A stretch of DNA of 53,507 bases from Flavobacteriales bacterium (GTDB lineage Bacteria > Bacteroidota > Bacteroidia > Flavobacteriales_F > PHOS-HE28): assembly GCA_017987115.1 (NCBI GenBank), contig JAGNUG010000013.1, positions 1 to 53,507 of the forward strand, in the 5' to 3' direction. Shown in pieces: positions 45,317 to 53,507 of the stretch. A model generated the notes under the pieces. It ran no database searches. It had not been told where the DNA came from and saw only the letters and a list, made by a program, of their open reading frames with translations. Numbering within the stretch: the stretch's first letter is position 1; each line of letters starts with the position of its first letter. The translations under genes and the position numbers were made by a program.

Positions 45317-46519
45317 TTACTTACCCAACCTCTTGTAGAATGCAACGAGGTCCTTAACGATCTTTTTCTCAGCGTATGCGGAACGGATCAACGCGCGGGC
45401 ATTGTGTCCCAACTCTTCCATCCTTTCGGGGTGATCGATCAATGCGATCATGTGTTCAACGAATTCCTTTGCATTGCGTGCAATAAGGATCTCTTTACCT
45501 TCGGTATAAGCAATGCCCTCCGCACCGATAGGTGTGGATATGATCGCTTTGCCCAAGGCCATTCCTTCAATGATCTTCACGCGCATACCGCCGGCACTGA
45601 ACAGCGGAACCACCATGATGTCCCTGGCCTTCATGTAATCGAACGCATCTTTCACGCGGCCTCGGCAGAGCACACCCTTGTTCTTGGTGCCCATCAGGTC
45701 TTTCGGCATCCGGTTACCAGCAAGATTGAGACGGGCTTCGGGTCGTTTTTCCAGCACTTTTGGCCAAACCGATCTCAAAAGCCATCGCACTCCCTCTTCA
45801 TTGGGCAACCAATCCATACTTCCCAAGTGGAAGAACACGGGTTTCTTTGACGCATTGTGCTGCACCCATTCGTACTCATCGGGTTCAACGCCGAACGGTA
45901 TGGAAATGATCGGTGTTCTTGTTCCGTGGGCGACGAAGTGCTCAGCATCCGCAGGGCTTATAGCTGCTACACCGTCCACGCGATCCAGAACGGACATCTC
46001 ATACTCCTGCAATTGCTTAGCGAGGAATTTGCGGTAGGGTTTCTTGAGGAAATTCTTCTCACCAATTGCGATCCGTTCCTGGATCACATGTTCCAGATTG
46101 TGGGAACGCAGAACAATTGGAGCACTGGTATACCTGCGTAGCGTCGGTATGTACGGTGTCATGAACAAGCTCTCCAACTGGATGATGTCGAACTGCTCTT
46201 CGCTCAATAGACGGATCAACCGAATATCCATGTCGGGAGAAAAGAACCGGCTGATATTGTAATTATCAGCATTGAGCAGATCATTGAATGCATCCACCAC
46301 GTTCAAGGAGGTATCCACGAAAACACCTTCGATCCTGGTGCTTTCTCGGTATTCTATCGGCAACGCATCCATGTTCAATGCATGTTTCGCTGTGGACACG
46401 CATAACACCTTAACGTGGTGCCCCGCATTGATCAACCCCCTGGCCAGATTGTGCATGGCCATGGTACCACCGTCAATGGGCGGGTAGGGGGGTTTATTGC
46501 ACAGTTGCAGAATTCGCAT
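45317..46519 (-). CDS. Glycosyltransferase family 4 protein
   Basis: 400 residues from ATG 46519 (MRILQLCNKPPYPPIDGGTM), overlapping the permease gene's last 26 bases. GT-B fold: the acceptor half has MHNLARGLINAGHHVKVLCVST and LRSHNLEHVIQERIAIGEKN; the donor half has FHLGSMDWLPNEEGVRWLL and VPLFSAGGMRVKIIEGMALGKAIISTPIGAEGI, the last with the conserved E...G pattern of GT4. It resembles the neighbouring glycosyltransferase, and the two probably add successive sugars. Tight overlap with the LptF/LptG-like permease suggests an LPS- or capsule-related transcription unit. Confidence 0.9.
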   Translation of the reverse strand: MRILQLCNKPPYPPIDGGTMAMHNLARGLINAGHHVKVLCVSTAKHALNMDALPIEYRESTRIEGVFVDTSLNVVDAFNDLLNADNYNISRFFSPDMDIRLIRLLSEEQFDIIQLESLFMTPYIPTLRRYTSAPIVLRSHNLEHVIQERIAIGEKNFLKKPYRKFLAKQLQEYEMSVLDRVDGVAAISPADAEHFVAHGTRTPIISIPFGVEPDEYEWVQHNASKKPVFFHLGSMDWLPNEEGVRWLLRSVWPKVLEKRPEARLNLAGNRMPKDLMGTKNKGVLCRGRVKDAFDYMKARDIMVVPLFSAGGMRVKIIEGMALGKAIISTPIGAEGIAYTEGKEILIARNAKEFVEHMIALIDHPERMEELGHNARALIRSAYAEKKIVKDLVAFYKRLGK

Positions 46520-47966
46520 TGGACCGCTTAAAGAAAGACAGAAAACGTTGCCATCCGCGATAATACGCATCGGCATCGAAGATGGGACTATCGGTTGCTG
46601 CTTTCCATGTTAATAAAACGCCGATCGGTAGGAGGACCAATGTACTGATCCACATGCCTGGCCAAGGCGTAATACCACCAGCAATGGCCAACTTTTCCAT
46701 GGAGAATGAAATAATGTGGAATACAAGGAAGAAAATGATCGCGAAGACGGTCGGAAGGCCCATGCCACCTTTTCTGATAATTGCACCCAGAGGCGCACCA
46801 ATGAAAAAGAATACCATACATGCAAAAGCGAGCATCAATTTACGGTGCCATTCGATGCGGAACCTGTTCACCTGTTCAGTTCTGCCCTCCCTTTCATCCA
46901 TACTGCGTTGGATGTAATTGAGATTGTTACGGACCATATTGGTCGCAACATCATACACTGCATTTCGGTTTTGGAGATCCGGTTGCTGAACCTTTTCCGT
47001 TCGCTCGCTCATCGGCTCTGATCTCGGAACGACCGGTGGCGTATTCTCGGTCCTCAACTTCTTATCACGCAAGATGTACAGACTGTTCCGCAAATGTGCT
47101 TGTTGTTCTTTACTACGCATTGCCAAAGATCCCAATAAGCTATCCTCGGCCACTTGCAGCTGGCCGATCGTAAGCATCTTGTAATGATCCTTGAACAGGT
47201 CTTCATCAGTGCGGACCATGCCCAAGCCAGTAAGGTCGAGTCGAAGCCTATCCTCTTTGAACGTGCCGCGCATCATTGCATATTTGGCATCGTCATTACC
47301 CGCTGCACCATGTTCATCATAGAAATGGCCGTCGTGAAGAGAAAGGAACAAGTAATGATCATCCGGGCTACGGCTCATCGTACCTGTCTTTGCACGCACC
47401 ACGGTCCGGTTTCCTTGGAACGCTGCTCTGTGGTCATAGATCAGCACATCATACAATGTACCGGTTTCCTTGTCCTTGTCCTGTACGCGGATACTGAAGC
47501 CATCAATTCCATTGTAAAAGATCCCGGGGCGAAGGTTAAGAGCAGGCTTTTTCCGTGTAACATCCCATAGAAGCGATTGGAATTTCAGATTGGCTATTGG
47601 CAAGAGGTTGTTGCTGAAATAGAATGAACCCAAAGAAAGCAGGCCGATGAATATGACCAATGGACTCATGATCCGGAATAGCCCTAGACCAGCGGATCGC
47701 ATTGGAACAAGTTCTGAGTTCTCTCCTAGACCACCCATGGTCATGATGCTGCTCAGTAGAATGGCCAAAGGCAATGCTAACGGAACGAAACTGGCAGTAG
47801 CATAGGTCATCAGCTCCAGCAGCACGTACCACTCGAGCCCTTTGCCCATGAGGTCATCGACATACTTCCAAAGGAATTGCATGACCAGTATGAACAGCAC
47901 GATCAGGAACGTGATCAGCAAGGGCCCTAAAAATGCCCGGATGATCATGATGTGCAACCGTTTCAT
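46494..47966 (-). CDS. LptF/LptG family permease
   Basis: 490 residues from ATG 47966 (MKRLHIMIIRAFLGPLLITF, the family's usual beginning). There are six predicted transmembrane helices in the normal 3+3 layout: around 12-34, 55-80 and 100-125, then near 395-415, 425-445 and 455-475. Between them lies a long periplasmic beta-jellyroll (about 130-390). LptF and LptG form the channel of the ABC exporter that pulls LPS out of the inner membrane and pass it to LptC. Bacteroidota often have a single longer YjgP/YjgQ protein like this one, with an unusually long charged region (PPVVPRSEPMSERTEKVQQ). The -7-like box GACCTTTG lies at 47992-47985. Confidence 0.9.
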   Translation of the reverse strand: MKRLHIMIIRAFLGPLLITFLIVLFILVMQFLWKYVDDLMGKGLEWYVLLELMTYATASFVPLALPLAILLSSIMTMGGLGENSELVPMRSAGLGLFRIMSPLVIFIGLLSLGSFYFSNNLLPIANLKFQSLLWDVTRKKPALNLRPGIFYNGIDGFSIRVQDKDKETGTLYDVLIYDHRAAFQGNRTVVRAKTGTMSRSPDDHYLFLSLHDGHFYDEHGAAGNDDAKYAMMRGTFKEDRLRLDLTGLGMVRTDEDLFKDHYKMLTIGQLQVAEDSLLGSLAMRSKEQQAHLRNSLYILRDKKLRTENTPPVVPRSEPMSERTEKVQQPDLQNRNAVYDVATNMVRNNLNYIQRSMDEREGRTEQVNRFRIEWHRKLMLAFACMVFFFIGAPLGAIIRKGGMGLPTVFAIIFFLVFHIISFSMEKLAIAGGITPWPGMWISTLVLLPIGVLLTWKAATDSPIFDADAYYRGWQRFLSFFKRSNANSATVQ

Positions 47967-48024: not shown

Positions 48025-48939
48025 TCACGCTCCAAGAACACGGATGAGCGAGCCGATCTGCGTATTCCACAGATTACGCACGGATTCCACTTCGCGCGGC
48101 CATGCATGATCCGTTACGATCAACGCCACATCATTGGTCATATCGTCTATGCGGATACGGAACTCGAAGAATGAATCCGGATCATCAACATCATCGTTAC
48201 GGTGGAAACGGATCACTTCGCCGAGTTTACGCCCGATCAGCGTTGTAGCCTCTTCCTCACCATCTTCCCATTTGAATATGTACAGGTCTTCCTGTACATC
48301 AACATCCACACAATACCATTCCGCAAATCCACTGGGAGTGGATATCAGGTCGTAGAGTACTGCAGGAGCGCTGCGGAGATTGAATTCGATCTGGACCCGC
48401 TGTTTCAACGGTTTCTTTGGTTCTTTTGGAGAAACACCGGCGCTGGATTTTGTCGTTGGCTTGGCCGGAGGAGCTTTTTTCGTTTCCGTAGGTTTTGCGA
48501 TCGGAGCCGTAGCTTTCTTCGTCACTGGTTTTGCAACGGCTTTGGGTTTCGCGATCGTCTTCTTCACCACTGGCTTTGCTGGTTTTACGGTCTTCTTTTT
48601 GGAGATGCTCGGCTTTTCAGGAGCGGCTTTCTTCGCAACTTTGATCTGTGCTGCCTTAGCTGCCTTTTTCTTTACGACAATAGCTTTAGCACGAGAAACA
48701 GGCTTCCCCGCGCTTTTCTTGGCTACAGGCTTCTTACCCACAACCTTCTTGGCTGTGACCTTTTTCGCTTTGCTCGCGCTCTTTTTTGCCGCAGTGAGCC
48801 CAGTTTTCGATGAAACTGCTTTTTTTATGGTGACAGCTTTTTTCTTCGGTGACGCGGGCTTTCCCTTTTTCTTAACCGTTGAATTCTTTTTAGGCGAGAT
48901 CGGTTTGCCTTTTTTGGTAACGGTCTTCTTCTTGGCCAT
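48025..48939 (-). CDS. START-like (START_2) domain protein with a long histone-H1-like N-terminal tail
   Basis: 304 residues from ATG 48939 (MAKKKTVTKKGKPISPKK). Residues 1-180 are almost only Lys, Ala, Pro, Val, Thr and Ser, with repeated KKA, AKK, KPV and PAKP words and only three acidic residues, like a histone H1 C-terminal tail. Residues 182-304 form a compact START/AHSA1-like domain (VQIEFNLRSAPAVLYDLIS, GFAEWYCVDVDVQ, YIFKWEDGEEEATTLI, FFEFRIRI, WNTQIGSLIRVLGA) of the kind that in other Bacteroidota stands alone at about 125-130 residues. The tail probably binds DNA or RNA; no ligand for the START domain is known. It has its own strong promoter at 48972-49001. Confidence 0.85.
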   Translation of the reverse strand: MAKKKTVTKKGKPISPKKNSTVKKKGKPASPKKKAVTIKKAVSSKTGLTAAKKSASKAKKVTAKKVVGKKPVAKKSAGKPVSRAKAIVVKKKAAKAAQIKVAKKAAPEKPSISKKKTVKPAKPVVKKTIAKPKAVAKPVTKKATAPIAKPTETKKAPPAKPTTKSSAGVSPKEPKKPLKQRVQIEFNLRSAPAVLYDLISTPSGFAEWYCVDVDVQEDLYIFKWEDGEEEATTLIGRKLGEVIRFHRNDDVDDPDSFFEFRIRIDDMTNDVALIVTDHAWPREVESVRNLWNTQIGSLIRVLGA

Positions 48940-48971: not shown

Positions 48972-49001
48972 TAAAGGTAGAGAAATCCGGTGCCGATGCA
49001 A
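48972..49001 (-). promoter_or_regulatory. Promoter of the H1-tail/START gene
   Basis: On the minus strand TTG (49001-48999), 19 bases, then TACCTTTA (48979-48972). The -33 box and spacing are perfect and -7 has one mismatch. ATG 48939 follows after about 32 bases. Confidence 0.65.
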
Positions 49002-49106: not shown

Positions 49107-49180
49107 GGCGCGGTAGCTCAGCTGGTTAGAGCGCAGGATTCATAATCCTGAGGTCGGGAGTTCAAGTCTCCCCCGCGCTA
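49107..49180 (+). tRNA. tRNA-Met (anticodon CAU)
   Basis: A class I cloverleaf. The acceptor stem GGCGCGG (49107-49113) pairs with CCGCGCT (49173-49179, including one G-U), with discriminator A at 49180. The anticodon stem CAGGA/TCCTG holds loop TTCATAA, giving CAT. The T arm is GGGAG-TTCAAGT-CTCCC. The paired first position (no C-A mismatch) argues against initiator tRNA. Elongator Met is the best call, but a tRNA-Ile with lysidine-modified CAU cannot be excluded by eye. CCA is not encoded. Confidence 0.9.
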
Positions 49181-49192
49181 CTGGAATGTTGA

Positions 49193-53139: not shown

Positions 53140-53507
53140 TTACTTCTTCTTCGCGGCGGTTTTCTTTGCGGCTTTCTTAGGTGCCGCTTTTTTTGGCGCC
53201 GCTTTTTTCGCGATCGGCTTTTTTGCAGCAGCGCGTTTAACAACTTTCTTCGCGGTCTTCTTCGCAGCTTTTTTCGGCGCAACCTTCTTAGCAGTTGGCT
53301 TTTTTGCAGCAGCGCGTTTAACCACTTTCTTCGCGGTCTTCTTCGCAGCTTTTTTCGGAGCAACCTTCTTAGCAGTTGGCTTCTTTGCAGCAGCGCGTTT
53401 AACCCCTTTCTTCACGGTCTTCTTCGCAGCTTTTTTCGGAGCTACCTTCTTAGCAGTTGGCTTCTTTGCAGTAGCGCGTTTAACTACTTTCTTCACGGTC
53501 TTCTTCG
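53140..53507 (-). CDS. Histone H1-like lysine-rich protein, 5' end outside the window
   Basis: The C-terminal 122 residues of a protein that begins beyond the window edge. It is nearly pure Lys, Ala, Pro, Val and Thr, with a 27-residue repeat (AAKKPTAKKVAPKKAAKKTAKKVVKRA and variants) and no acidic residue. This matches bacterial H1-like (Hc1/HU-tail-like) DNA-binding proteins of Bacteroidota and Chlamydiae. In the DNA the repeat is exactly 81 bases. The true N-terminal domain, which could be an HU-like fold, cannot be seen. The frame reads through the window end (53494-53496 is GTG within KKTVKK), so the GTG is not a start. Confidence 0.8.
   Translation of the reverse strand, partial: KKTVKKVVKRATAKKPTAKKVAPKKAAKKTVKKGVKRAAAKKPTAKKVAPKKAAKKTAKKVVKRAAAKKPTAKKVAPKKAAKKTAKKVVKRAAAKKPIAKKAAPKKAAPKKAAKKTAAKKK
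53216..53507 (-). repeat. 81-bp tandem repeat in the H1-like gene
   Basis: The marker CGCGGTCTTC/CACGGTCTTC recurs at 53251, 53332, 53413 and 53494, spaced 81 bases each time. At least three and a half copies lie in the window. Copies differ by a few bases, mostly at third positions or Ala/Thr/Val/Gly swaps. Confidence 0.9.

Follow-up and report, generated by a model that had tools for sequence, protein, structure and literature searches.

A lysine-rich, histone H1-like tail recurrently joined to the START_2 domain in Bacteroidia

Long histone H1-like tails have been described on several bacterial proteins with otherwise different jobs. In AlgP of Pseudomonas aeruginosa, the C-terminal 154 aa are KPAA-rich; the protein binds DNA and is found at polyphosphate granules (PMC9239181), whose spacing requires the tail (PMC9239181, PMC3574117), and KPAA peptides bind DNA in vitro (PMC9239181, PMC3574117). 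PhaF of Pseudomonas putida is believed to anchor PHA granules on the chromosome, its tail binding the DNA (PMC9239181, PMC3574117). The lysine-repeat C-terminus of actinobacterial topoisomerase I is reported to confer high processivity (PMC7398561).

In the literature that we searched, we found no account of START_2 function and no mention of a lysine-tailed START_2. Lipids are common ligands of START folds. The histone H1-like HC2 (PF07382), a stand-alone protein, is lysine/alanine/proline-rich, acid-poor and disordered.

Here, we analyse a START_2 gene within a 53,507-nucleotide stretch of a Flavobacteriales genome (the window), and establish the gene, the fusion of its product to a tail and the spread of that fusion, together with its predicted fold and disorder and selection on the charge of the tail. 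The tail is of the same type as that of AlgP, i.e. long, KPAA-rich and H1-like (PMC9239181), and the fusion resembles PhaF in pairing a domain that has another job with a disordered H1-like segment (PMC3574117, PMC9239181). However, the AlgP and PhaF tails are C-terminal, being attached in AlgP to a predicted helical N-terminus, with no START domain described, and in PhaF to a phasin-helix partner for PHA granules. Actinobacterial topoisomerase I also resembles the fusion in that a lysine-rich tail has been added to a cellular protein, although there it is C-terminal and on an enzyme already binding DNA (PMC7398561). Plant HD-Zip III/IV factors, in which a DNA-binding part is joined to a START domain, offer a functional parallel only (PMC3645734); they are eukaryotic and use a sequence-specific homeodomain, and have no demonstrated common origin with the fusion.

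The START_2 gene and its polycationic tail

The gene is a frame of 304 codons (304 aa) running from an ATG at position 48,939 of the reverse strand to a stop ending at 48,025 (Table 1), in agreement with the preliminary description, which had also reported a 180-residue Lys/Ala/Pro tail almost without acidic residues. The tail has 178 residues, including 59 lysines, three glutamates and no aspartate (33% K, 17% A, 11% P), for a net charge of +57. When each codon position was shuffled within the tail (2000 shuffles), lysines averaged 20.7 (maximum 32) and acidic residues 20.5 (minimum 12). Tandem Repeats Finder reported no tandem array. An AlphaFold2 model of the 304-aa protein, built from 81 aligned sequences, predicts coil throughout the tail and no helix, with pLDDT of about 48–63 to residue 170.

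Table 1. Features of the START_2 locus, and a further H1-like gene elsewhere in the genome
Feature	Position	Strand	Basis
LptF/LptG-family permease gene, downstream, co-directional	46494..47966	-	PF03739, E 1.1e-73
START_2 fusion gene, stop included	48025..48939	-	ORF call; found again in 33/34 genus relatives
START_2 domain (PF19569), residues 179-304	48028..48405	-	Pfam, PDB 2lio, fold prediction
N-terminal Lys/Ala/Pro tail, residues 1-178	48406..48939	-	composition, structure prediction
Bacteroidota-type promoter TTG-N19-TACCTTTA	48972..49001	-	sequence match; equivalents in most genus members
tRNA-Met gene	49107-49181		
Stand-alone H1-like protein	around C119:6550-6700 in L199 (G000:C119:5000-8000)	-	

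The remainder of the protein is an acidic START_2 domain (net charge -12) that spans positions 4–126 of the 126-position Pfam model and scores 104.5 bits (E 4.5e-30) against a cut-off of 23.6. It is the only Pfam domain in the protein; a phasin domain was not found, and neither AHSA1 (PF08327) nor HC2 matched at E 0.1. The model places this segment in a helix-grip fold with pLDDT of about 97. Its nearest solved relative is PDB 2lio, the Bacteroides fragilis protein BfR322 (E 9.7e-15), which is also the top Foldseek match of the predicted domain, followed by START/AHSA1-type structures (Z 13.5–16.3). 2lio comprises the same domain over its whole length, with the same fold, but it lacks a tail, as do the named relatives from Bacteroidota outside the genus.

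The promoter consists of TTG at 49,001–48,999, a 19-base spacer and TACCTTTA at 48,979–48,972, with the ATG 32 bases further on. A generic sigma-70 scan detected no promoter, which is expected for Bacteroidota. In most genus members a similar CTTG...TA-NN-TT[T/G] element precedes the ATG by 15–40 bases, and the relatives' proteins begin with similar MAKKK-type starts. It had been proposed that this promoter fixes the start codon; the element is present as described and supports the start codon, but by itself it only limits how far upstream the start can lie. The stronger argument is conservation upstream of the gene in relatives, and with the MAKKK-type starts that they share the N-terminus is well supported. 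In some genus loci (e.g. L018, L025, L026, L063 and L069), the -7 element begins 15 bases before the ATG, and this spacing suggests that their mRNAs may be leaderless or nearly so.

Distribution and evolution of tailed and bare forms

The START_2 gene is present in 33 of 34 genus relatives, in one copy each, and all 33 are tailed, with tails of 124–291 aa where complete; the remaining relative, represented by a 76% complete genome, gave no START_2 match. Across the class, START_2 was found in 322 of 395 genomes, single-copy in most, and many of these frames have 250–530 codons. All 34 of the lengthened-frame loci that were examined (L147–L180) encode Lys-rich extensions, of 57–377 aa; counted together with the other tailed loci, the extension occurs in 13 further families, or 14 including that of the window. 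The bare protein of about 125 aa, which had been anticipated as the stand-alone form in other Bacteroidota, is indeed found in 75 named Bacteroidota loci outside the genus, including those of Flavobacteriaceae, Crocinitomicaceae and Sphingobacteriaceae. The gene looks like an ancestral single-copy START_2 gene to which a tail was added, and not a new paralogue. A tree of 104 START_2 domains needs seven changes of tail state, of which well-supported branches force at least two, and a single tailed clade is not rejected by the AU test (p 0.444); repeated origin of the tail is likely on this phylogeny.

The tail changes much more rapidly than the domain. Among genus members the START_2 domains share anything from less than 50 to more than 90% identity, whereas between-species tail identity is 0.45–0.51 over most of this range, against 0.42–0.45 for shuffled tails, and reaches 0.57 in the closest pairs. 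In those pairs the dN/dS of the tail is roughly 0.3–0.4, on an uncertain tail alignment, and is no sign of strong constraint. Some tails hold conserved parts ahead of the domain. The one most clearly conserved in position is a PIQAVMMGVEP...LKRAL-type motif kept just before START_2 in a subclade of the genus (L018, L023, L025–L029, L054, L055, L062, L063, L069 and L070). In family f20 (L147–L152, L041), most tails hold a conserved KGGRKPKKKDGDDDEPEI...LIEQLI-like block before START_2, in which an AT-hook-like basic patch is followed by an acidic stretch.

The composition of the tail is better preserved than its sequence. In the genus, whose loci are GC-rich with a mean GC of 0.62, K+R amounts to 0.28 (sd 0.03); the other tailed families are AT-rich (locus GC 0.38) and have 0.32 (sd 0.04). 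Median tail lengths are 205 and 208, respectively, and the composition is thus maintained under opposing base pressures. One-base codon differences were counted in well-aligned stretches of 23 disjoint close pairs, and comprise K/R 7, K/T 5, K/N 6, A/T 11 and A/V 9, with no K/E or A/E. Lysine is one transition away from glutamate, as it is from arginine, yet K/E is absent; although zero K/E against seven K/R is a small sample, it points to selection that excludes acidic residues from the tail.

These findings bear on whether the tail is simply a low-complexity expansion that is tolerated but does nothing. The wide variation in its length and sequence, and its fast evolution relative to the domain, would fit such an account, but the tail persists genus-wide and in 13 other families, across widely differing GC contents and with acidic residues excluded, and we regard absence of function as very improbable. 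An expansion specific to the strain, which the preliminary description had named as the finding that would count against the fusion, is ruled out by the 33 tailed genus relatives and the 13 other families, in which the charge is kept under selection. The same evidence bears out the claim that the tail is truly encoded, and the tailed START_2 architecture is real, conserved and recurrent.

H1-like character and candidate partners of the tail

Several features support the earlier comparison of the tail with histone H1. Compared with composition-matched shuffles, the tails have about ten times as many KKAxxKK words (46 against 4.4) and about twice as many of the KPAA type (194 against 87). AT-hook-like words (GRKP, RGRK) number 15 against 1.3, an excess confined to the other families, and S/TPKK minor-groove motifs are not enriched over shuffles. 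The tail is like HC2 in composition and motif style, and although the window's own tail has no match, the tails of a few genus relatives reach the HC2 gathering score of 40 bits, with 44.7–50.9 bits in relative G012 and, at the cut-off, 38.5–41.4 in G022; these matches rest largely on composition. Similar tails on nucleic-acid proteins of the same genome (see below) add to this likeness.

From these features we infer that the tail binds nucleic acid, and that it changes where the START domain acts and not what it does. We consider it probable, though well short of secure, that the tail is an electrostatic nucleic-acid tether added to an old START_2 protein, with nucleoid DNA a more likely target than RNA. 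An ordinary single-copy Bacteroidota START_2 protein would thus have gained a long, intrinsically disordered N-terminal polycation whose binding to nucleic acid would be electrostatic and independent of sequence, and the acidic START domain would thereby work at, or be stored on, the nucleoid. On the best reading, such a tether would work much as the PhaF and AlgP tails do. DNA is favoured because the motif style of the tail is H1-like, but the choice is undecided: RNA, polyphosphate and acidic membranes are equally plausible targets of a disordered lysine-rich segment, and the gene that follows encodes an LPS-export permease. A regulated version is conceivable as a speculation, in which the acidic START domain would compete with nucleic acid for the tail and a ligand would shift the balance. 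Nearly all genomes of the class have START_2, as a single-copy gene, and a tail that recurs in many families with its charge kept indicates where the protein is wanted.

The precedent of AlgP, with its KPAA-rich DNA-binding C-terminus at polyphosphate granules (PMC9239181), raises the prospect that the tail is instead an organiser of polyphosphate granules, or of granules of another anionic kind, and links them to the nucleoid. Polyphosphate kinase (PP_kinase, PF02503) is matched in 27 of 33 genus genomes, including the window's own, but the near-complete genomes G002, G017 and G028 are tailed and have no match, although another kinase family could substitute; we give this role little credence. 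PHA synthase (PF07167) was found in none of the 33 genus genomes, and a tether to PHA granules of the PhaF type is rejected for the genus. With no PHA synthase, and some tail carriers having no polyphosphate kinase match, the known granule roles fit poorly.

The neighbourhood of the gene could hint at a different partner. In the window, as in many relatives, the START_2 gene lies directly upstream of a co-directional LptF/LptG-family permease gene; with the in-frame ATG at 47,966 as its start, the permease gene begins 58 bases past the START_2 stop, and its longest ORF reaches 48,107 and overlaps the START_2 gene. As START folds frequently bind lipids, the domain could be a lipid carrier serving the LptF/LptG permease, with the tail bound to an anionic membrane or LPS precursor. 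However, LptF/LptG neighbours occur alike beside tailed (at least 29 of 74) and bare (at least 30 of 95) loci, tailed proteins of other families adjoin a PAP2-type gene or neither, and the H1-like Lys/Pro/Ala tails have no hydrophobic or amphipathic anchors, with no helix predicted; a membrane role is in our view very unlikely. In other lineages the neighbours are PAP2-type or form an aminotransferase IV – YqgE – HU – Fmt – RecQ set, and in the window aminotransferase IV and YqgE (AlgH) lie a few kilobases upstream of the START_2 gene. The conserved neighbourhood was set aside as a clue to function; LptF/LptG, PAP2 and aminotransferase IV follow lineage and not the tail.

Other lysine-rich proteins of the genome

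The lysine-rich proteins of the genome were sought with two DNA patterns only, neither of which hits the START_2 tail, and the resulting list is incomplete. In topoisomerase I of the same genome, C-terminal repeats are followed by KKAPAKKKVSPKKKAAKK in a Lys/Ala-rich tail. This tail, at about 1–530 of locus L198 (G000:C44), resembles the actinobacterial one (PMC7398561). The 30S ribosomal protein THX (TIGR04560, 35.1 bits against 26) also has a Lys/Ala-rich tail. Since topoisomerase I and THX carry such tails, the carriers identified are mostly nucleic-acid proteins. With a topoisomerase, a ribosomal protein and a START domain all bearing them, H1-like tails may be a portable module in bacteria. 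The genome also encodes a small H1-like protein that stands alone (about 78 aa; Table 1) and consists almost only of KKAAPKKAAKK.

THX of the same genus bearing the same kind of Lys/Ala tail is one reason for considering RNA or the ribosome as the target, in which case the START domain would be held near nascent chains or mRNA, and the relation of its fold to the co-chaperone Aha1 would fit a function near protein folding; the fold matches include Aha1-type proteins (2m89, Z 16.2). AHSA1 scores in relatives are below the gathering cut-off (15.0 and 15.3 against 22.1 bits), with none reported for the window protein, no RNA-specific motif is seen in the tail, and disordered lysine tails do not discriminate by sequence. 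An RNA target is thus unlikely, but deserves some weight beside the favoured tether to nucleoid DNA.

The gene at G000:C92:2730–3062 on the reverse strand (L208) encodes a SET-domain protein (PF00856, 75 bits) whose own C-terminus is Lys-rich. Among the identified tail carriers, a SET-domain protein with a mixed Lys/Glu tail is an exception to the predominance of nucleic-acid proteins. It would be conceivable, at long odds, that Bacteroidia have repeatedly made an old START protein into a nucleoid protein that is chromatin-like and senses a ligand, the tail binding the chromosome, the acidic START domain competing with DNA for the tail and a bound lipid or metabolite setting the balance, and that SET proteins may methylate the tails. 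Methylation of lysine tails by SET proteins, if true, would be a bacterial counterpart of histone-tail modification. Within the genus, 31 of 34 genomes encode SET domains; over the class as a whole, the occurrence of SET-domain proteins does not follow that of the tail.

Other members of the genus have complete THX proteins of 69–90 aa with H1-like tails. In the window, a Lys/Ala repeat at 53,140–53,496 of the reverse strand looks like the C-terminal part of THX with such a tail, and the other end of the gene is apparently at the end of contig C186 (L197, G000:C186), where there is an 80-base match. From these matching ends, the assembly probably broke inside an 81-base THX repeat.
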